DNA of 64,000 nucleotides from Psychromonas sp. B3M02 (lineage in GTDB: Bacteria; Pseudomonadota; Gammaproteobacteria; Enterobacterales; Psychromonadaceae): positions 1 through 64,000 of the forward strand of contig NZ_QOCB01000010.1 of assembly GCF_003318165.1 (NCBI RefSeq), read 5' to 3'. Both the position numbers and the translations under genes were made by a program. Positions within the stretch are counted from its first letter, which is position 1, and each line of letters starts with the position of its first letter. Positions 30,674 through 64,000 of the stretch are shown here, piece by piece. The notes beneath the pieces are model-generated. The model was given only the letters and a program-made list of their open reading frames with translations. It did not search any database and had not been told where the DNA came from.

Positions 30674-30970
30674 CTACTCACAACAGGATAAGTGTTATAA
30701 GCTTGTTAACAGACTGCCACTACCTTAAAAGATATGAATCTGTTTAATCACTAATTTGATGCCTACATCACAAGCAGTTAGTTTTTTTTAAGAAAAAGCA
30801 AGACTCGCTCAATAAAACAACACTTTAACCACCCAACAAATAACTTAAGCACTATTAAATTAATTATTCAGCTAGTGTTATTAGTTCAATATGCCTATCA
30901 TTTACAAAGCGTTATCAACTACCTAGCAAGCTCTCATAGCTCAGCATCATTTTTACAGGCTTAACAAACA

Positions 30971-31915
30971 ATGAGTTTTACCAATAGTGTTTTATATCAG
31001 CAGATTGGCGCGAGCCCATTGCAAAGCATTACTCATCCTTTACTCACAGAAAAAGGCGTTCAATTATCTATTAAACGCGACGATCTGTTACATGCAGAAA
31101 TTTCAGGTAATAAATGGCGAAAACTAAAACACAATTTACTTGAGGCGGAAGCACAACAAAAAACTCACCTACTTAGCTTTGGTGGTGCTTTTTCCAATCA
31201 TATCCATGCCTTAGCTGCCGCCAGTTACCACTTTAAATTTCAAGCAACAGGTATTATCAGAGGGGAAGCGCATTATGCTTCTAACCCTACCTTATCTCAG
31301 ACACAGAAATGGGGCATGAAGTTAAATTTTGTTGATAGAAAAACCTACCGCTTAAAAGAACAAGCGGATTATTTACAGCAATTACAACAACAAAATCCCA
31401 AGGTTTATATACTTCCAGAGGGAGGTACTAATAACTTAGCGATACCTGGTGTTGCGGATATTATTACTGAGTTAAAGCAGCAACATATTGGCCCTGTCGA
31501 CCATATATTTACGGCAACTGGCAGTGCAGGAACTTTAGCCGGTTTAATCAGCGGAGCTTTACAGCAGAGCCCTAATACACAACTACATGGCGTTGCAGTA
31601 TTAAAGAATGCGGATTATTTACGGGAGACTATCAAACAGTTAGTTAATAAAGAGCACCAAGTTAGTTGGCACTTACATACTGAAAATCATGAAGGTGGTT
31701 ATGGGAAGATATCTCAAGCTTTGTCTCAGTTTTGTCATCAATTTACACAACAAACACAGGTCCCTATTGAACCTGTTTATACAGGAAAAATGTTTTATGC
31801 TTTATGGCAATTGATTGAACAGAATCACTTTCCCAAAGGCACCAAGATAGTAGCGCTACATACTGGCGGGTTACAGGGGTTAGCAGGATTAAAATTACTT
31901 AATAAATTTCAATAA
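30971..31915 (+). CDS. PLP enzyme of the ACC deaminase/D-cysteine desulfhydrase family
   Basis: Pyridoxal-phosphate enzyme of fold type II, 314 residues. The PLP lysine is expected in SGNKWRKLKHNL (residues about 45-56), followed by LLSFGGAFSNHIHALAAA and the phosphate-binding glycine loop TATGSAGTLAGL. Members split D-cysteine to pyruvate, sulfide and ammonia or open 1-aminocyclopropane-1-carboxylate; most proteobacterial ones act on D-cysteine. It is alone, divergent from the TRAP operon. The 2-oxo acid link to the TRAP system is only suggestive. Confidence 0.8.
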   Translation: MSFTNSVLYQQIGASPLQSITHPLLTEKGVQLSIKRDDLLHAEISGNKWRKLKHNLLEAEAQQKTHLLSFGGAFSNHIHALAAASYHFKFQATGIIRGEAHYASNPTLSQTQKWGMKLNFVDRKTYRLKEQADYLQQLQQQNPKVYILPEGGTNNLAIPGVADIITELKQQHIGPVDHIFTATGSAGTLAGLISGALQQSPNTQLHGVAVLKNADYLRETIKQLVNKEHQVSWHLHTENHEGGYGKISQALSQFCHQFTQQTQVPIEPVYTGKMFYALWQLIEQNHFPKGTKIVALHTGGLQGLAGLKLLNKFQ

Positions 31916-54411: not shown

Positions 54412-55539
54412 TTACTTATTCTCATAATGACGATTATCATGTGCTTGCTGTAACATCACACGACTTTCATCTAAGAATAATGATGAATAATCACCCATCC
54501 AGTTAGTAACTGATTTAAAACGCTCAATAAACTCATCTCGATTTTGATTTTCCAATAGTTCGATCGCATCAGAGAAATGTTTATGGTATCGCTTGATCAT
54601 GGTTAAGTTATTTTTTTGCGATAGGATAATATCAGCATATAAAGCTGGCTCCTGCGCAAATAAACGCCCTACCATTGCTAACTCTAAGCGATAAATAGGT
54701 GAACTTAGATCTAATAATTGCTCTAGATCCGCATCTACTTCTTGCAGATGAACACCATATACGAAACTAGTGAAATGACGTAGTGCTTGGATTAGCGTCA
54801 TCGACTCATCATGTGTAGGTGCCGCTACAGGGTAAAGATGTGCCCCCCAGATCTTCATCTGTTCAATTAACCATTGGTAGTGTTCTTCACCGCGTCCATC
54901 ACAGTACACAATAACTTGCTTTGCAAAACTAGAGATATCAGGACCGAACATAGGATGAAGACCAACAACAGGGCCTTCATGGACCGCTAACATCTCTGTT
55001 AATGGTTCGTCTTTAACACTGGTAATATCCGCTAAAATACAATCTTTAGGGAGGAAATTAAGCTGTTTAATCACATCCGTAGTTACATCAATCGGCGAAC
55101 CAACAATCACTAAACCTGCTTTGCTACAAATAGCTTCTGCTTGATCCCAGTTAGCACGTCCTAAAACATCTACTTCGTAACCCGATAGTTTAAACATTTC
55201 AACAAAACGTTGGCCTAATAAACCGTTACCACCAATGATCACGATACGCTTCATTGCTGGGTTAACTGTTTTAAAGCCTGTTTCGTTTTCACTTGCATAA
55301 GACTCACGCATGGTACGGCGTAAGATATCTTCAATCAGGTTCGCAGGAACCCCTTTAGATTCAGCTTCTTCACGACGTTTAGCTAACATTGCAGCTTCAC
55401 GATCTGGTGCATAAATAGGTAAACCATGTTTAGTTTTAACCTCACCTACTTCACCCACTAAGCGTAAACGCTCAGCTAATAGATCAATGATTTGCTGGTC
55501 AACAGCATCAATTTGATCTCGTAATTTACTTAAAGGCAT
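54412..55539 (-). CDS. tyrA: Chorismate mutase/prephenate dehydrogenase TyrA
   Basis: T-protein of tyrosine synthesis, 375 residues. The N-terminal chorismate mutase domain (1-90) shows [20 protein letters not shown]. The prephenate dehydrogenase domain follows with NAD-binding [16 protein letters not shown] near residue 100, and [19 protein letters not shown]. It is 10 bp after aroF, so one operon; TyrR control is expected but no clear TyrR box was found. Confidence 0.96.
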
Positions 55540-55549
55540 AATTTACTTC

Positions 55550-56617
55550 TTATTTATTCAAGACAGTATCTTTTAATGATACAGCCGCTTGCTCTAATAA
55601 TTCACAGGTAGTTGCCCAATCAATACAAGCATCCGTTACTGATACACCGTACTTAAGATCTTCAACTGGTAGTTTAGTTGGCTGATTACCAGCATTAATA
55701 TTACTTTCCAGCATAATACCAATAATAGACTTATTACCCGCAACAACTTGTTGGAATACATCTTTAGCAACCAATGGTTGTAATTCATGGTTTTTACTAG
55801 AGTTTTCATGACTACAATCAACGATTAGAATCTCTTCCATATTCGCTTTTGCTAACGCTTGCTCTGCTAGTGCAACGTTGATTGAATCATAGTTTGGTTT
55901 ACCGCCACCACCACGTAAAATAACGTGACCGTCTTTATTACCAGCAGTTTGTAGTAATGCACTTTGACCTGCTTGGTTAATACCCATGAAACGATGTGGA
56001 GATGAAGCTGATTGCATTGCATTTACAGCCGTTGATAAGCTACCGTCTGTGCCATTTTTGAAACCAACTGGTGTTGATAAACCACTCGCCATTTCACGGT
56101 GTGTTTGTGATTCAGTGGTACGTGCGCCAATCGCAGCCCAACTGAATAAGTCACCAATGTATTGTGGACTGATTGGGTCTAATGCTTCAGTCGCAATAGG
56201 TAGACCTAACTCAGAAATCCAAAGCAGAAGTTCACGTGCTTTTTTAAGACCTGTCTCAATATCAAATGAATCGTCCATATGAGGGTCGTTAATCAGACCT
56301 TTCCAACCGACTGTTGTACGTGGTTTTTCAAAATAAACGCGCATAACAATATATAAGGTATCTTTATATTGTTCATGTAACTCTTTCAAACGTGTTGCAT
56401 AATCTTTTGCAGCTTCAATATTATGAATCGAACATGGACCACAAATAACTAAAAAGCGATGGTCAGTTTTATGAACGATGTTAGAAATAGTTTGACGAGA
56501 TTCATTAATGAATTGATACACACTATCAGAAGCGGGCAAAGACGCTTTAAGCTCTGCAGGTGTAATTAAAACAGTTTCTGATTGGATGTGGATATTTTCA
56601 TTTTTTTGCGTAGTCAT
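55550..56617 (-). CDS. aroF: 3-deoxy-7-phosphoheptulonate synthase AroF
   Basis: Class I DAHP synthase, first step of the shikimate pathway, 355 residues. The metal and phosphate site motifs VICGPCSIHN, RVYFEKPRTTVGWKGLINDP, and IGARTTESQTHREM are all present. Pairing with tyrA marks it as the tyrosine-sensitive isozyme AroF rather than AroG or AroH. Confidence 0.94.
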   Translation of the reverse strand: MTTQKNENIHIQSETVLITPAELKASLPASDSVYQFINESRQTISNIVHKTDHRFLVICGPCSIHNIEAAKDYATRLKELHEQYKDTLYIVMRVYFEKPRTTVGWKGLINDPHMDDSFDIETGLKKARELLLWISELGLPIATEALDPISPQYIGDLFSWAAIGARTTESQTHREMASGLSTPVGFKNGTDGSLSTAVNAMQSASSPHRFMGINQAGQSALLQTAGNKDGHVILRGGGGKPNYDSINVALAEQALAKANMEEILIVDCSHENSSKNHELQPLVAKDVFQQVVAGNKSIIGIMLESNINAGNQPTKLPVEDLKYGVSVTDACIDWATTCELLEQAAVSLKDTVLNK

Positions 56618-56734: not shown

Positions 56735-56868
56735 ACCTGTTTTATTTTACAATAAAATATAATCTTGCTTATCTAACTGTGTTAAATAACGAGATAGGGA
56801 CACCAAAAGCTCCTTCTAACCAGTATGTTTATTATCAATATTTACTCAAATAAGGTATGTACTACACT

Positions 56869-57993
56869 ATGTCAGTTATCACTTCTCATGTAATGACCTC
56901 CTGGTCGGAAATAAAAACATTACAAACTGACTGGAACCCCTTATTAGAGCAATCCGATGCAGATAATATATTTCTCACCTGGGAGTGGATGGAAAGTTGG
57001 AAAGATACCTGCTTTGCTGACACAAAATTATTGTTTATTGTATTAAAAGAAAATAACAAACCGATTGCGATTGCCCCTTTTTATATTCAGCCTTACCAAC
57101 TCCTTAAGACATTAACCTATCAAGTATTACGATTTGCAGGGGATCAAGGGATCGGCTCTGAGTACTCCAACTTTATTGTTAGAAAACAAGATAGTGTTAA
57201 TTTAAAGCAACAGCTTTGGCAGACACTACTAGCAAAACAAACAAGCTCTCATTGGGATCTTATTTGGTACACGAATGTCAGCAGCTGGACAACTGGTGGT
57301 CAAAGCTTAATAACATCACTACAACAAACTCCTGAACTACGTTTAGCGTCACGTGAGGTTGATTTCGCTAATACCAGCTTAAAATCACTATCCCTGTCCC
57401 TGCTACCTGAACTATCAAAAAGCTTACGTACTAATATAAAGCAGACTCAAGGTTATTTATCGAAGTTAGGAGAGTGGCAAGTAAGCTATTGTGAAGACCC
57501 TGTATTACTTAATAAAAGTTTGCAGCAATTATTTGAACTACATAACTTACGCTGGCAACGTACTGGTCTTAAAGGATCCTTTCAGCGACGCCCAGAAATG
57601 GCTACCTTCTATCAAGACTTTACAAGAAAAGCATTACATAAAGGTTGGTTAAGATTAGCTGAATTAACATGTGACGATAAAACCCAAGCAGTACAAATTG
57701 GTTATGTATATCGCGGGCAATTTTTTGCCTTACAAGAAGGTTTTAATCCAGACTTCCAAAAAGGCACAGGCCAAGTATTACGTTATCACGTCATGCAAAG
57801 GTGTATTCAGGAAGGCTTAACGGATTATGACTTTTTGGGTCAGTATACAAACCACAAAAGGCGCTGGTTAGCTAAACAACGCAATGGGCAACATCTACTT
57901 ATTTGGCCAAATAAGCTGAAAAACACACTCTTTAACTTTTTCACTATTTGGCCAACGGGAAAATACCTTAAACCAGTTAGATTAAATAAATGA
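56869..57993 (+). CDS. GNAT/FemAB-like acyltransferase (BioF2-type)
   Basis: Protein of about 374 residues with a C-terminal GNAT-fold domain of the BioF2-like type (Acetyltransf_6), recognised from LRTNIKQTQGYLSKLGE, LFELHNLRWQ and YDFLGQYTNHKRRWLAKQ. The N-terminal half (DADNIFLTWEWMESWKDT) matches FemAB-like polysaccharide-locus proteins. It is convergent with the heparinase-like gene, 18 bp apart. Such proteins may acylate or aminoacylate polysaccharide or its carrier; the real substrate is unknown. Start is uncertain: ATG 56857 or 56869. Confidence 0.7.
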   Translation: MSVITSHVMTSWSEIKTLQTDWNPLLEQSDADNIFLTWEWMESWKDTCFADTKLLFIVLKENNKPIAIAPFYIQPYQLLKTLTYQVLRFAGDQGIGSEYSNFIVRKQDSVNLKQQLWQTLLAKQTSSHWDLIWYTNVSSWTTGGQSLITSLQQTPELRLASREVDFANTSLKSLSLSLLPELSKSLRTNIKQTQGYLSKLGEWQVSYCEDPVLLNKSLQQLFELHNLRWQRTGLKGSFQRRPEMATFYQDFTRKALHKGWLRLAELTCDDKTQAVQIGYVYRGQFFALQEGFNPDFQKGTGQVLRYHVMQRCIQEGLTDYDFLGQYTNHKRRWLAKQRNGQHLLIWPNKLKNTLFNFFTIWPTGKYLKPVRLNK

Positions 57994-58011
57994 CTTAGTT
58001 TAAGGCACCGT

Positions 58012-60015
58012 TTATTTCCAGGCAATACTCGTAACAAACTCACTATTACCATTAATATCAGCGGAAAGTACTAAAGTAGTAATTGGCACTTTCTGGTGGT
58101 AGCCTCGACTCAACCAACCTAATGAAGGTGTCTGTTTATCGTCACTAGGAACACCTTGAACCAATGTAGCTTTAACTTGTTCTGGCAAGCTGATCACGAC
58201 TTCATTATCCCCTAAAGTTATATAACAACTTCCTTGATCAAGACGTATATCCTGACAAGCTTCAGATAAATGAAAATAGATGGCAATATCATGTTGCGCT
58301 GTTGCTTTGACATAGTCAGTGATCACTATCTGTTGTTGCGTAATATCTAATTCAATATCACGTTGATGGGTAACAGGTGATGGTAGGCGTTGATAACCAT
58401 CATGTGCAGCCACTATTTTTCCACCACTTTTCGAGGGTGACCATTCAATACAAGTTGACTGCGCATGTGACTCCCACATAAATGGGCCCGTCATTACAGA
58501 TTGATCAAGTCCATCAACTTCTAGCGTATTATGTGCTTGTGTTTTACGAAAGTGGTTGCGCCATTCAGGGAAACTAAAGTAATCATAAGTACCTGTATCC
58601 ACAAATAAATCATGTTGATTAATACGCACAACACAACTTAAAGCATCAGCATGACCATGCGCGGCTATTGCCGTATAACCTAACTCCGCGACATCCATTA
58701 AGATACTCGCCTGGTTATTATCACTAACCTTACCTGCTTGTAATAGGTAATAGCCAGCATCTTCAAAAGCAATGGAATTTAAAGCTGAGTCAACAACCAC
58801 CCCTCGATTGATTTTTGCTTGCCTATTATTAAATAGCCAAAAACTTGATTCACTACTTTTAATCTGAGGAGAGGCAAAAAGTGGATCATCATAAAAATGC
58901 CCCATCACATCTGTAAGTGCATTAATATCATGTACATGATCCCCAAGATCTAGCACATAACCATCATCTTGATCACCTAACATAGGGTAATGCTCACCGC
59001 CTTCAGCAATGCGAACAACGAACTGTGATAAACTTTTTAAGGTTTTCCAATACCTATCAGAAAAATCATCATCACTCCATTTACCTGTTAATCCTGTAAC
59101 CAGATAAAATTGCAATACAAAAAACTGATAACTAAAAGCATGCTCTTTAGTACAACCATCATCAAAGGTTTGCGCAACCATTTCTCTTTCTAATATTTGT
59201 TTGCTCGTATCTTTCCACGTAGCGGCATCTCTTAACATTGAAAAGTAACTAGCTGCAATGTAAACACCCGCCGCTTCACCCACCAAATGGTTATTCGCTG
59301 AAGTTCCTTGTGAAAACTTACTGCTCACATCACGACAATGAAGAAAAACACTTTCTAGTAGGCGTGCTTTAAAGTCTCCGACAAATAAACCACTCTCTTT
59401 AATAAGATCAATGGTCCATACCCAGTTAATTAAACGAATCGCTAACTCTAAAGGACTGCGCCAATTCATGCCTTTACCGTAGGGGTTTTGATCTAACCAA
59501 TGAGTCATCTGTGCAACGGCAGCTTGTGCATATTGAATGTCACCAGTCACTTGATAGGCTCTTGCTAATACCACCATTTGATGGTGACGATTGGGCTCCC
59601 AGACTAGCTTACAGTCACCATTGACCTTAAAGTCACGATAATTAACGTCCAATATATGCCCAGTATTTGCGTAGATATTCGCACTATGATCTTTATGCCA
59701 ATTAATAGGGGTTTCTAGGTGCTTATTGTGTAAATCGAAATAACTTAATTTATTTGCCATCACCATCTCAGCTTTAGCTAATAAAGGCGCCTTCCACTCA
59801 GTATTATAAGCAGATAGTTGACCGGTAAACACAGTAAAACCAGGGTTAAAATCTGAGCCAGATTGATAACCTTTAACAAACTCCGCTTTAGACACCCAAT
59901 TAAACTGCACTCTTATACGCTCAACCCAAGCTGCAGATAATGAGATAATCCGCCAAGTGATTTCACTCAAGCTCATCATCTGAATGCGTTTAATATACCA
60001 AGTAACAGTTTGCAT
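58012..60015 (-). CDS. Heparinase II/III-like polysaccharide lyase
   Basis: Predicted uronate-polysaccharide lyase or EPS-modifying enzyme of 667 residues. The N-terminal alpha toroid (about 1-350) shows WRSPLELAIRLINWVW and SANNHLVGEAAGVYIA. The C-terminal beta-sandwich heparinase II/III domain has AAHGHADALSCVVRI, DLFVDTGTYDYF and the conserved AHNTLEVDG. No clear signal peptide. This type of gene is a standard member of exosortase A polysaccharide clusters. It lies 18 bp after the exosortase gene. Confidence 0.82.
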   Translation of the reverse strand: MQTVTWYIKRIQMMSLSEITWRIISLSAAWVERIRVQFNWVSKAEFVKGYQSGSDFNPGFTVFTGQLSAYNTEWKAPLLAKAEMVMANKLSYFDLHNKHLETPINWHKDHSANIYANTGHILDVNYRDFKVNGDCKLVWEPNRHHQMVVLARAYQVTGDIQYAQAAVAQMTHWLDQNPYGKGMNWRSPLELAIRLINWVWTIDLIKESGLFVGDFKARLLESVFLHCRDVSSKFSQGTSANNHLVGEAAGVYIAASYFSMLRDAATWKDTSKQILEREMVAQTFDDGCTKEHAFSYQFFVLQFYLVTGLTGKWSDDDFSDRYWKTLKSLSQFVVRIAEGGEHYPMLGDQDDGYVLDLGDHVHDINALTDVMGHFYDDPLFASPQIKSSESSFWLFNNRQAKINRGVVVDSALNSIAFEDAGYYLLQAGKVSDNNQASILMDVAELGYTAIAAHGHADALSCVVRINQHDLFVDTGTYDYFSFPEWRNHFRKTQAHNTLEVDGLDQSVMTGPFMWESHAQSTCIEWSPSKSGGKIVAAHDGYQRLPSPVTHQRDIELDITQQQIVITDYVKATAQHDIAIYFHLSEACQDIRLDQGSCYITLGDNEVVISLPEQVKATLVQGVPSDDKQTPSLGWLSRGYHQKVPITTLVLSADINGNSEFVTSIAWK

Positions 60016-60033
60016 TGGGTTTTCTACCTAAAA

Positions 60034-61521
60034 TTAAGATTGATTTGAATTAAGATAAGTGTCAATAAACTCACTTAATTGTTGTTCAGCCATTGCTTGA
60101 TTTTCACCGTCAAAGTCAAAGCTAACTGCGACTAGAGTAGCCCCAGGTTTCCCTATTAACGCCGCTTTAACTTCCGCTAATTTAGCCATTTTTTTATCGC
60201 TAGTGACGGTCTCATTAATGACATACCAAGATGCAACCAAACGGTACCTGTGTGCCGATCTTTTTAATACCACTAAGTTCGCTTGTGACAAACTTGAAGA
60301 GCCAGGCACTGCTAATTTTTTCTCTGCTATTTCTGTCCAAAAGTCTTCATCAAACAGGTAATTTTCTACAAAGATCATTTCGCTAGCTTGCTCTTGTTTA
60401 TAGTAATCAGCTAGATAAACCTGAAAACCTAATGACTTATCAATGTAATAGGAGAATCGCTCTTGAGTGGCGCCTTGTGAATAAGGTTTCCAGCTTGGGC
60501 TGTAGGGTTTATCACGACTGACTAATTGATAATTATCTAAGCTTGGTTCAACAAAAGCATAATTTTCATCATATCGAGACGGGATCCAGTAAGAAGCTGC
60601 CACAAAAGTAATTAAAACAATTAAAGTAATAGACGCCTGTTTTTTATTCAAAGAAGACTCATCACTAGTTTCAGGCTGAATAAGCTCTTGGCTCTCATCT
60701 TCAGGTCTTTCTTCAAAAAAAGTACGGGCAATATAGATAAGTGGAATTAAACAAACAGCAAACACAATCCATCCAAAGGTGAGGTGATCATGTACGATGA
60801 AATGATTCATCTCAGTATATGTGCCCACTACGATGATAATCATCACCCTTAACCAGTTGGCAATAATAGCAATCGCTAAACTAATAATTAAAAAATTTAG
60901 GGTTCTTTTAGTGGACAACTTATTAAAGTAGCTTACACAAAACGCCAGTAACGCCGCGACCATAAAAAAGCCTAAACCAGAACAAGCTGGGTCAACATCG
61001 AACATACCACCCGCTGTCGATAATCTATAATGGTCACGGTCTACGGCAATGCCTAGTAACTCAGGTCCCCAAACTCCAGCTTGAGTTGACAGCTCACGCA
61101 AAGGCAATTGCAGCATGTTCCAAACTGGCATTATCAATAACAGCATCAATAAGGGGATGAAAAAAGCTCGCAACATTTTCCAACCATAAAAACAAAAAAA
61201 CAAGGAAACGAGAGTGCTATAAAAAGCTAATTGCTGTAATTGTTGGATACTGGATAATAATGCCACTAAGAAAACAAATAGACTAAACACTAGACAGGCT
61301 AAAGCCAGACTGTAATGCCCTTTGGATAAATTAGTTGCTTGTAAACGATGTCGCTGGAGATAAAAAACATACACCACGACAATAATCCCTAAAAAGCCGT
61401 GACTATAGGGTCCATCACTGTTCCATTCGTCGAAGATAGTGAGTAAAACAAGTGTGTTTACAGCAAATAGAATAATCAATGAGATAGTAAACAGGCTTTG
61501 TACTGAAATCTTTTTAAACAA
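60034..61521 (-). CDS. Exosortase (XrtA-like) fused to an EpsI-like domain
   Basis: Membrane transpeptidase-like protein of 495 residues. Eight or so membrane helices occupy residues 8-265. The exosortase triad is intact: Cys180 in DPACSGLGF, Arg225 in ANWLRVMI, and His246 in HDHLTFGW. After a charged linker (268-295) and one more membrane helix (about 296-312), residues 320-495 form an EpsI-like (DUF3485) domain. Exosortases cut and sort PEP-CTERM proteins to the surface; the gene is flanked by sugar genes, as in XrtA polysaccharide loci. No PEP-CTERM protein is in the window. Confidence 0.85.
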   Translation of the reverse strand: MFKKISVQSLFTISLIILFAVNTLVLLTIFDEWNSDGPYSHGFLGIIVVVYVFYLQRHRLQATNLSKGHYSLALACLVFSLFVFLVALLSSIQQLQQLAFYSTLVSLFFCFYGWKMLRAFFIPLLMLLLIMPVWNMLQLPLRELSTQAGVWGPELLGIAVDRDHYRLSTAGGMFDVDPACSGLGFFMVAALLAFCVSYFNKLSTKRTLNFLIISLAIAIIANWLRVMIIIVVGTYTEMNHFIVHDHLTFGWIVFAVCLIPLIYIARTFFEERPEDESQELIQPETSDESSLNKKQASITLIVLITFVAASYWIPSRYDENYAFVEPSLDNYQLVSRDKPYSPSWKPYSQGATQERFSYYIDKSLGFQVYLADYYKQEQASEMIFVENYLFDEDFWTEIAEKKLAVPGSSSLSQANLVVLKRSAHRYRLVASWYVINETVTSDKKMAKLAEVKAALIGKPGATLVAVSFDFDGENQAMAEQQLSEFIDTYLNSNQS

Positions 61522-61560
61522 AATAAGCCCCTACAAAAGCTTGGTATAATTGAATTGTGT

Positions 61561-62694
61561 TCACGGCGCTAGCACTTCGTTATATACAGCAATCGTGCGT
61601 GCAGCTACCTTTTCAACATGGTAGAGATCTCTCGCTAGTTGTTTAGCTTTAAGGTGCATTTTCCTAGCCAGTTTAGAATCATTTAAAATTAACTCACATT
61701 TGTTCGCGATATTGTACTCATCAAAAGGGTTAATTAGATAACCTGTTTCACCATGTTTGACCATATATGGCATGCCGCAACGATTTGAAGTTACTACTGG
61801 CACACCTACCGCCATCGCTTCTTCAATGCCCATAGGGGAGTTTTCTTCCAAAGAAACTAAGCCATAAATAGCTGCCTGACATAATTCAGCCTGAACCTCT
61901 TGTGTTGAGATTCGCCCTAAAAGTATGACTCTTTGTTGTAAGTTATTTAACGCAATAAATTCCATTAATTGCGTTGCATAATCTTGATCAACAACACCAC
62001 CAGCAATTCTTAATTCAACCTCAACACCTCTATCAACAAGTATTTTAACTGCTTTAACTAGCTGTATTACGTTTTTACGAGGTGAAATCACCGCTGAAGT
62101 AAAGATCACATTCTTGCGAGGCTCTCTTGTTAAATCAAAAAACAGCTCAGAGATAGGATTATCTATATCAAAAATATGTGCTTTGGTGACACCGGTTAAT
62201 CGTTCTCTCACATAAGGGCTAATGGAAATTATATTGGGTTGCTTACGCCAACTGGATTTTTCTATTATTTTCCAAATTTTAGAGCGCAATACATTAAACT
62301 TCCCGTTCGCTAATAACGTATCACCATAAATAAACCCATGGACCGTAAATACTTTAGGCATATTTAAATCTTTAACCATAATGCCATAAGTATCATGCGC
62401 ATGAATTAAATCAGGGGATATTTCTTTAACCTTACCTTCGATTAACTGCTTACCTTTCTTTAATGCATTGATTAGCTCACTTCCAGCAGGTTTGGGAATT
62501 CGATGAATAGTTGTACTTTCAAGCTTTTCAGTAGACTCGGTTATAGTATCAGGGCACAAGGTGATGACATGTAATTCAAATTCAGAATAAGCTGCCAACG
62601 CAGGAACTAAATTAACACTGACGGCTTCAACTCCACCGTGCGGCCTGTCTATATCAATAGGAAACTGTGTAACAAACGCTAATTTTATTGGCAT
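61561..62694 (-). CDS. GT4-family glycosyltransferase
   Basis: GT-B glycosyltransferase of 377 residues. The N-terminal acceptor domain begins MPIKLAFVTQFPIDIDRPHG; the C-terminal donor domain shows VIFTSAVISPRKNV and SLEENSPMGIEEAMAVGVPV, with the E-X7-E donor motif. AAGG 8 nt upstream favours the ATG at 62694 over a GTG at 62703. It starts 11 bp after the previous transferase. The sugar is unknown. Confidence 0.85.
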   Translation of the reverse strand: MPIKLAFVTQFPIDIDRPHGGVEAVSVNLVPALAAYSEFELHVITLCPDTITESTEKLESTTIHRIPKPAGSELINALKKGKQLIEGKVKEISPDLIHAHDTYGIMVKDLNMPKVFTVHGFIYGDTLLANGKFNVLRSKIWKIIEKSSWRKQPNIISISPYVRERLTGVTKAHIFDIDNPISELFFDLTREPRKNVIFTSAVISPRKNVIQLVKAVKILVDRGVEVELRIAGGVVDQDYATQLMEFIALNNLQQRVILLGRISTQEVQAELCQAAIYGLVSLEENSPMGIEEAMAVGVPVVTSNRCGMPYMVKHGETGYLINPFDEYNIANKCELILNDSKLARKMHLKAKQLARDLYHVEKVAARTIAVYNEVLAP

Positions 62695-62704
62695 TATTCC
62701 CACC

Positions 62705-63826
62705 TTACATTGACAATTCAGTGAAAATAGCTTCGAAACGTTCCATTACTTGATCAACAGAGTGATTCTTTACATAATATTCACGTGCATTGTTAGAGTA
62801 TTGTTGCCATAACTCAGGATTCGAACAGAGCTTTTTAATACCCGAGACTAAGTCGTCTTTTGTGACGGCATCAAAGCCTAGCTGACGGTCTCTGATCAAG
62901 TGGTCTGGGTCAAAGGTAGAAACAATAGGCAGCCCTTGGCTCCATGCCTCTAAAAAGGTATTAGGAAACCCTTCATAAACCGATGAACAACAAAATACGC
63001 TTGCACTGCGGTATAAGTTCGGCATGTCTGCACGAGCAACCATCCCCAGATAGGTTACATTGTCGAGACTATTCATTGTGTTTAAAACACTTTTAAAATA
63101 AGCGTCTTCTTGTTGAGGGCTACCTCCAACAATAAAGTCATATTCAGGTAAGCTCTTTGCTACCTCTAAGAATAACTCTAAACGCTTACTTTCATGGATC
63201 CTAGCGGCCCATAAAATGGAGGGAGATTGTTGGTTTAATATAATTTGTTCATATTCATCATGACGAGGGCCTGGACATGGCATAGGCATGATCTCAGAAT
63301 TAAGTTTAAAACCCGACTTTAGAGAGTTCATCTGTTTTTTAGTTTGCGATAAAATATAATCTGCATTGTTCAAACCATAACGATACAAGATCCTTTCTCG
63401 ATAGGTATTCATTACTGGTAAATTATAATCTGCATCAGAATCATTAGCTAAAGAGTATAAAAATTTTTTATTATTCTGCTTGCACCATAGGGCAACTTGA
63501 CCCGTTATATATTCACCACAGTTTTGATAATAAACATCAGCATCAGCACGTTTCATGGCAGCAATTAACCCCGTCCAACGAGGGTGGAAAAAACGAAGTC
63601 CTTTTAAACCTGCATTTTGACGACATATTTTAATAACATGAATGCCGTCTATGACTTCATCTTGATCACTGCCTTCTGCCCAAGTTAACAAAGATACTTT
63701 GTGACCTTTTGCCACTAACCACTTTGCCATCAAGCTCGTTTGTCTTTCTACACCGCCTATTGACCCCTGACTTCCACCAGTAACAGCACCATAAGCAAAA
63801 TGAGACACGAGACAAATATTTAGCAT
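62705..63826 (-). CDS. GT4-family glycosyltransferase
   Basis: Second GT-B transferase of 373 residues. The N terminus has IGGVERQTSLMAKWLVAKGH, and the donor domain has SPSILWAARIHESKRLELFL and CCSSVYEGFPNTFLEAWSQG, the E-X7-E region. It leads the visible polysaccharide operon together with the next gene beyond the edge. Acceptor and sugar are unknown. Confidence 0.85.
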   Translation of the reverse strand: MLNICLVSHFAYGAVTGGSQGSIGGVERQTSLMAKWLVAKGHKVSLLTWAEGSDQDEVIDGIHVIKICRQNAGLKGLRFFHPRWTGLIAAMKRADADVYYQNCGEYITGQVALWCKQNNKKFLYSLANDSDADYNLPVMNTYRERILYRYGLNNADYILSQTKKQMNSLKSGFKLNSEIMPMPCPGPRHDEYEQIILNQQSPSILWAARIHESKRLELFLEVAKSLPEYDFIVGGSPQQEDAYFKSVLNTMNSLDNVTYLGMVARADMPNLYRSASVFCCSSVYEGFPNTFLEAWSQGLPIVSTFDPDHLIRDRQLGFDAVTKDDLVSGIKKLCSNPELWQQYSNNAREYYVKNHSVDQVMERFEAIFTELSM

Positions 63827-63872
63827 GATAATTTACAACCCTAACAATAAAATAGATAAAACGAGATAATCA

Positions 63873-64000
63873 TTATTTCGTATTAAGCAGGAATAACAGT
63901 TCAGGAATTTTTTTATGTGCAGGAAAATTAAAGCGTTTTAATGTCATTAAATCATCCTTTGATTGACATAATCCAACATCCGTTGAAAATGCAGCTTGAT
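63873..64000 (-). CDS. C-terminal end of an unidentified protein
   Basis: The minus-strand frame entering from the right edge reads about 41 codons to a stop at 63873, ending FPAHKKIPELLFLLNTK. The other two frames close sooner. It lies 46 bp before the glycosyltransferase start, in the same direction, so it is probably part of the same operon. Too short to identify. Confidence 0.5.
   Translation of the reverse strand, partial: QAAFSTDVGLCQSKDDLMTLKRFNFPAHKKIPELLFLLNTK

Follow-up and report, generated by a model that had tools for sequence, protein, structure and literature searches.

The PEP-CTERM/EpsH system of Haft 2006 (PMC1569441) joins proteins with PEP-CTERM tails to an EpsH-family enzyme, to PrsK, PrsR and PrsT, and to polysaccharide genes nearby. 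According to the available part of that paper, the PEP-CTERM genes are preceded by a 17-base motif ending in TTTACA, with a sigma-54 site on average 62.8 bases further on, and PEP-CTERM proteins would be attached to an unknown periplasmic nucleophile. For Aquincola tertiaricarbonis, the accessible portion of PMC9850573 presents a sigma-54 (RpoN)-dependent PEP-CTERM gene, pepA, along with PrsK/PrsR, a TPR gene and an EpsB-type sugar transferase, and reports that an overexpressed PEP-CTERM protein lowers exopolysaccharide release. Other described relatives are the loci built around the exosortase XrtA (TIGR03109), exemplified here by locus L246. We studied an exosortase/PEP-CTERM polysaccharide locus of Psychromonas sp. 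B3M02 in a window of 64,000 nucleotides, i.e., positions 1-64000 of the 113,292-base contig NZ_QOCB01000010.1. The whole locus measures about 32 kb (contig 56.9-88.7 kb) and crosses the right edge of the window, which stops inside it; the genome has 3.86 Mb and is 99.99% complete. Domains were assigned by Pfam and NCBIfam profile models with their cut-offs.

We read the locus, with a probability of about 0.8, as the core of a complete exosortase/PEP-CTERM surface system making a Wzx/Wzy-type polysaccharide, whose exosortase and glycan genes form a lineage of their own. What the compared genomes show directly is gene content, co-occurrence, promoter-like sites and the separation of the lineage. 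The system overall is of a known kind. It shares with that of Haft 2006, as far as the available text of that paper describes it, the tails, the EpsH-family enzyme, the motif with its sigma-54 site, the three Prs proteins and the adjoining polysaccharide genes; with the part of the Aquincola cluster covered by the accessible text, a sigma-54-dependent PEP-CTERM gene, PrsK/PrsR and a TPR gene; and with XrtA loci, a fusion of EpsI-type length, the Cys/Arg/His residues, the export and chain-length families, and PrsR with its box. It differs from the first in a PrsT under cut-off, many PAP tails and another set of glycan genes; from the second, where the sugar transferase is of EpsB type, in a likely start by WecA/WecG; and from XrtA loci in an exosortase that scores under cut-off and falls in a separate clade, and in having, in place of the XrtA hallmarks (see below), WecG, a heparinase-like gene and in most cases a sulfotransferase. 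These sequences appear best read as a known PEP-CTERM chassis that carries an exosortase lineage without class assignment, coupled to a WecG/heparinase glycan cassette of its own. Judged against the open-licence literature, in which we found no paper joining exosortase and heparinase, what seems to be new is this pairing of lineage and cassette on the conserved PrsK/PrsR chassis.

The exosortase lineage

The exosortase-EpsI fusion, the single exosortase found in the genome, is encoded at 60034..61521 in the negative strand (a TTG start was assumed). It passed the exosortase family models TIGR02602 (145.4 bits, cut-off 105.55) and PF09721 (168.9 bits, cut-off 25.7), and its EpsI part passed TIGR02914 (52.7 bits, cut-off 42.8). 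Cys180, Arg225 and His246 were unchanged in 64 of 64 aligned exosortases, in agreement with a preliminary description of this DNA that had proposed an intact fusion carrying these residues. The five named relatives of the fusion, 61-81% identical to it, were all from Psychromonas, and a search with the exosortase profile gave no solved structure at an E-value of 1. All five genes of the preliminary description had open frames at the positions it gave and the region was syntenic with relatives, which rules out chance, a pseudogene or contamination; chance is also of no concern because the domains are long and high-scoring.

That description had further named the enzyme exosortase A, a name that fails in the strict sense: TIGR03109 was the best-scoring specific model, at 173.3 bits, below its cut-off of 208. 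The XrtW model NF038142 matched nearly the whole length, reflecting the same full-length exosortase-EpsI architecture, but with 170.8 bits against a cut-off of 425 the protein is not a member. The models for XrtD, XrtV, XrtN, XrtB, XrtC, XrtO, XrtQ, XrtT, cyanoexosortases A-C and archaeosortase C also gave scores below their respective cut-offs. In a sample of 24 Psychromonas genomes, the XrtA model matched all 16 exosortases, none of them over cut-off (best E-value 1.3e-52, about 180 bits). We then compared 247 genomes of the order, 15 Psychromonas among them, by their scores with the same model: 165-181 bits in the 15 Psychromonas, 171-174 in three enzymes of a second family, f2, and 299-349 in 28 genomes, other matches lying at 117-200. 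The distribution was bimodal, with no match between 200.3 and 299.3 bits, and no genome of this sample had both a Psychromonas-type and an XrtA-type exosortase. Identity to the 28 XrtA enzymes was 17-23%.

In a tree of 64 exosortases, the 16 Psychromonas and three second-family enzymes formed one clade, with a support of 100/100 and a stem of 1.47, that did not include any of the 28 XrtA rows; the root was placed at the midpoint, the deepest splits were weak (84/37 for the one dividing the two sides of the tree) and the named classes were absent as outgroups. One XrtA row over cut-off, L118, stood at an open fork of the tree, apart from the other 27. By its sequences the Psychromonas lineage is likely a new exosortase class, not a proven one, because of these weak deepest splits, the midpoint root and the position of L118. 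A single class for all exosortases of the order that score under the cut-off was rejected, several deep groups of them being present in the tree. The three second-family enzymes (L132, L133 and L134, from genomes G024, G049 and G183) nested beside one Psychromonas subclade, a position that points to horizontal transfer; since the greater part of the cassette is found in their loci too, the locus appears to have been transferred as a whole.

Two other patterns concern exosortase content. Two genomes (L150 = G065:C41; G130:C9:51619-52410) carried a second, much more divergent exosortase, with XrtA-model scores of 123 and 127 bits. In genus g29, the genomes G053, G214 and G223 differed from G124, G138 and G232 in exosortase type: a genome had an XrtA over cut-off or an exosortase of another kind, never both. 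PrsR was found in all six; the exosortase seems to have been exchanged between types in this genus.

The lyase and the glycan cassette

Next to the exosortase gene, at 58012..60015 in the negative strand, lies the gene of a heparinase II/III-like polysaccharide lyase (PF07940, 171.9 bits; PF16889, 93.4 bits). The lyase keeps Asn242, Tyr296 and a His-Gly-His motif at 453-455, which we take from family knowledge to be the catalytic residues; they were invariant in 11 of 11 sequences. It fell far from the HepC equivalogs, with 87.2 bits for NF045573 (cut-off 700) and 82.5 for NF045572 (cut-off 600). Convergent with the lyase gene, a gene for a FemAB/GNAT-like acyltransferase (PF13480, 93.4 bits) extends over 56857..57993 in the positive strand; the start given in the preliminary description, 56869, is its second ATG. 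Two genes of GT4 glycosyltransferases lie on the other side of the fusion, both in the negative strand, at 61561..62703 (PF00534, 108 bits, and far below all XrtA-system glycosyltransferase cut-offs) and 62705..63826 (PF00534, 75 bits). Pfam and NCBIfam thus agree with the neighbours previously assigned to the fusion.

For gene order, we used 10 related loci, nine from Psychromonas and one from the second family; another six Psychromonas loci were covered only in part. In all 10 the lyase and exosortase genes shared a strand and were separated by 7-51 bases, with both gene orders occurring, and a FemAB-like homologue lay 0-103 bases beyond the lyase gene in nine, the tenth stretch ending too early. 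The genes wecG, sulfotransferase, flippase, wzy and a 408-amino-acid gene were each present in nine, the contig of the remaining locus ending early, and those of PrsK, PrsR, PrsT, export, chain length and kinase in all 10. Two more second-family loci kept the heparinase-like, FemAB-like, wecG, flippase, wzy and 408-amino-acid genes.

Heparinase III proteins are catabolic enzymes, and the relatives of the lyase among solved structures in the PDB carry that name (best E-value 2.7e-15), which would fit an enzyme acting on outside polysaccharides and placed here by accident. We consider this improbable, since no signal peptide was obvious by eye, the gene accompanies the exosortase in every related locus whatever the gene order, and it was kept in three of three second-family loci.

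To compare with other exosortases of the order, we took 20 XrtA loci and 17 others, reading some 10 kb to either side of the exosortase where the contig allowed, and a lineage set of 13 (our locus, nine Psychromonas loci with one contig ending early, and three second-family loci of 20 kb each). Lineage-type heparinase, WecG and 408-amino-acid homologues were found in none of the 37 loci at an E-value of 0.01; FemAB-like matches occurred in two, and weak sulfotransferase, flippase and wzy matches in one, two and one. The reverse comparison started from the proteins of XrtA locus L246, itself counted among the 20, with a homologue defined by at least 35% identity. L246 holds EpsB_2, the XrtA deacetylase, the XrtA FemAB, stp1, stp2, the amidotransferase and stp3, all over cut-off. 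EpsB_2, deacetylase (TIGR03006), FemAB (TIGR03019), stp1 and amidotransferase (TIGR03108) were present in 17, 20, 15, 15 and 17 of the 20 XrtA loci, in 5, 5, 0, 0 and 0 of the 17 others, and each in none of the 13 lineage loci; the L246 export protein had 35-38% identical counterparts in the lineage loci. The preliminary description had taken the neighbours of the fusion for hallmarks of XrtA clusters, which does not hold: the FemAB-like protein matched neither the XrtA FemAB nor any other NCBIfam model at an E-value of 0.001, and no homologue of the lyase was found within about 10 kb of the exosortase in the 20 XrtA loci. Judged from these comparisons, the genes are there by name and are not the XrtA-cluster versions.

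The enzyme might instead be a fast-evolving XrtA orthologue in an altered XrtA locus, its low score a product of sequence drift. XrtA is indeed the specific model closest to it and matches every Psychromonas exosortase, the split between the two sides of the tree is weak, L118 stands alone, and four proteins of the locus exceed XrtA-system cut-offs: PrsR (679 bits, cut-off 502.6), PrsK (448.5, cut-off 300), chain-length (284.8, cut-off 278.85) and export (192.8, cut-off 180). The gap of about 100 bits in the scores, the low identity to the 28 XrtA enzymes, the replacement of the XrtA glycan hallmarks by other glycan genes and the separation of the two types among the sampled genomes nevertheless make an XrtA orthologue doubtful, with a real chance of being correct.

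PEP-CTERM proteins and PrsR-type sites

The preliminary description had proposed a genome search for PEP-CTERM tails, which yielded ten proteins over the PEP-CTERM cut-off, scattered in the genome and none of them encoded in the locus. By eye, all ten had a signal-like start and an end composed of the motif V/I-P-E/A-P, a membrane helix and basic residues, five with PEP and five with PAP. Exosortase, PEP-CTERM proteins and PrsR were present in the same 16 of the 24 Psychromonas genomes and absent in the same eight, three of which are less than 90% complete (Fisher p 1.4e-6, ignoring descent). In other genera, PrsR was over cut-off in 46 of 47 exosortase-bearing genomes irrespective of exosortase type, the exception having the most divergent exosortase. 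Several relatives had a PEP-CTERM gene a few kb from prsR (e.g., G011:C6 ~30951-31678, L089, with a PrsR-type site); our genome had none there.

Eight of the ten PEP-CTERM genes had an upstream sigma-54-like site. An exact joint pattern of box and sigma-54 site, drawn up from these genes, gave 25 sites, five of them in our genome. They fell in 14 of the 16 Psychromonas genomes with an exosortase; the eight without one had none, and the reversed pattern gave none. A frame with a PEP-CTERM-like tail followed all 25 sites (21 recognized by pattern, four by eye). An exact match to the PrsR box was also present in 18 of 28 XrtA genomes and in one of 16 that the XrtA model did not match, these 16 being judged by that model alone. 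V/I-P-A-P tails made up nine of the 25 site-picked Psychromonas tails and none of 26 from XrtA genomes (Fisher p 0.0007, with orthologues counted separately and tails read by eye); the 26 remained from 30 loci after removal of three that had no tail and one whose genome lacks XrtA, two further matches having no locus. Three VPAP tails in XrtA genomes were seen in a sample picked by hidden Markov model (HMM). The PEP/PAP comparison from that sample was set aside; its loci were top rows plus 20 low rows taken by hand per set, some rows were mis-read, and the tail pattern missed four of 58 Psychromonas and seven of 50 XrtA-genome loci.

Several observations weigh against a complete system of a distinct lineage under PrsR. 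Two of the ten PEP-CTERM genes were without an upstream sigma-54-like site, only five carried the full exact pattern, and two exosortase-positive genomes had no exact site. The joint pattern was not found on the locus contig, polysaccharide genes included, where looser sites would escape it. PrsT (275.1 bits, cut-off 312.2) and the tyrosine kinase (182.5 bits, cut-off 230.65) fell below XrtA-system cut-offs. A close tviB homologue was present in only one of the 10 related loci, and two of the three second-family loci gave no sulfotransferase match, so the sugar chemistry is not fixed. The reactions ascribed here to exosortase and lyase are predicted from their genes.

A lone sigma-54 consensus in the locus, at 82574 (+), lies inside a gene of the opposite strand, and a lone box-like match with one mismatch on the contig, at 65699 (-), lies inside tviB. 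With sites at PEP-CTERM genes and none at polysaccharide genes, PrsR appears to control the cargo rather than the polymer. The same distribution would suit an exosortase with no functional tie to the locus polysaccharide, its substrates being anchored elsewhere (lipid, lipopolysaccharide) or released; in addition, no PEP-CTERM gene lies in the locus. Yet in each of the 10 related loci the lyase gene keeps its place beside the exosortase gene, and in the second family the exosortase comes with the greater part of the cassette; we think such an untied exosortase possible but on the unlikely side. The locus glycan is a plausible putative target of attachment by the exosortase.

Remaining locus genes and proposed mechanism

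To the left, the locus is bounded at 54412..56617 (-) by tyrA (chorismate mutase/prephenate dehydrogenase-like) and aroF (3-deoxy-D-arabino-heptulosonate-7-phosphate synthase-like), named by eye. Both lay beside the locus in G021, G009 and G003, and aroF alone within the G016 stretch; the G011 stretch was shorter. At the right edge of the window, a polysaccharide deacetylase gene (contig 63873-64901, negative strand) is represented by its 3' end, 63873..64000. The flippase, the polymerase and the regulators, which the preliminary description had missed from view and expected further on, were found just past this edge, and both PEP-CTERM proteins and further exopolysaccharide genes, whose absence it had set as the outcome to count against it, were present. 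The genes beyond the edge are tviB, for a UDP-N-acetylglucosamine dehydrogenase (64967-66244; 636.5 bits, cut-off 592), a GT4 (66324-67475), a Wzy_C polymerase or ligase (69677-71095), another GT4 (71114-72346), the conserved 408-amino-acid protein (72349-73575), a MatE-family flippase (73572-75125), the sulfotransferase (75131-76114) and the WecG-family transferase (76124-76921). They are followed by a CE4-like protein (77073-78104, positive strand), PrsT (78170-80788), PrsR (80828-82174), a protein without assignment that looked like an outer-membrane beta-barrel by eye (82185-83465), a tyrosine autokinase (83631-84389), the chain-length protein (84391-85935), the export protein (85938-86564) and PrsK (86660-88699).

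Three of these products required closer inspection. The 408-amino-acid protein is without assignment; a PDB sequence search gave one match (E-value 0.47), and its structure model, with a mean predicted local distance difference test score (pLDDT) of 46.6, was too poor to search. The CE4-like product resembles CE4 polysaccharide deacetylases (best E-value 2.9e-6; mean pLDDT 66.2), with low template-modelling scores and residues 175-273 poorly modelled. Among the polysaccharide genes, in the opposite strand (67898-69565, +), a 555-amino-acid protein, beta-helix-like by eye and possibly secreted, matched no Pfam or NCBIfam model; copies with at least 35% identity were present in two of the 10 relatives and weaker ones in six others.

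None of the three polyprenyl glycosylphosphotransferase genes (PF02397) of the genome is on the locus contig. Two PF00953 genes lie outside the locus: one, beside murF-like and murD-like genes, is MraY-like, and the other is WecA-like by eye. Given the location of the PF02397 genes and the WecA-like gene elsewhere, initiation of the repeat unit by WecA and then the locus WecG is likely from what is known of these families. At L097 (G000:C13), a gene whose product looks outer-membrane-like by eye comes after one for a polyprenyl glycosylphosphotransferase, which suggests that the genome has a second polysaccharide locus outside the one studied here. Divergent to prsK and adjoining it, the contig has a gene for a PAS-PAS-methyl-accepting protein (89210-90508, by Pfam), with a 75% identical copy near prsK in G009; most other relatives were not fetched far enough.

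We propose the following mechanism, relying on family knowledge to predict the enzyme activities, the sugar chemistry, the cleavage of the tail and the acceptor. PrsK and PrsR, with sigma-54, would switch on most of the approximately ten scattered PEP-CTERM genes. The WecA-like enzyme would start a lipid-linked unit, to which the WecG-family enzyme would add a second sugar; the GT4 enzymes would extend it, and the sulfotransferase and deacetylases would probably modify it. Flippase, Wzy, chain-length protein, kinase and export lipoprotein would move the polysaccharide out. The exosortase, through its Cys/Arg/His residues, would cut the tail and join the protein to an acceptor at the cell surface, probably polysaccharide-linked, and the lyase would trim or turn over the polymer. 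By analogy, the accessible part of the Aquincola work (PMC9850573) supports sigma-54 control and a role of a PEP-CTERM protein in holding exopolysaccharide at the cell.

A broader proposal, speculative and unlikely to hold, is that exosortase lineages are matched to the receiving glycan and not to the sorting signal. In the order, the PrsR regulon and the tail would be nearly constant, and exosortase and cassette would vary, and be transferred, as a unit. In that case the Psychromonas lineage would be a new class, with an acceptor glycan that is initiated by WecA/WecG, contains uronate, is often sulfated and is edited by a heparinase-like lyase of its own. PrsK/PrsR and export genes of the XrtA-system type do not imply an XrtA exosortase. 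The Psychromonas locus offers a natural swap, in which exosortase and glycan cassette are both different but the regulator is the same and the tails are similar, and it could show which of the first two attachment follows.

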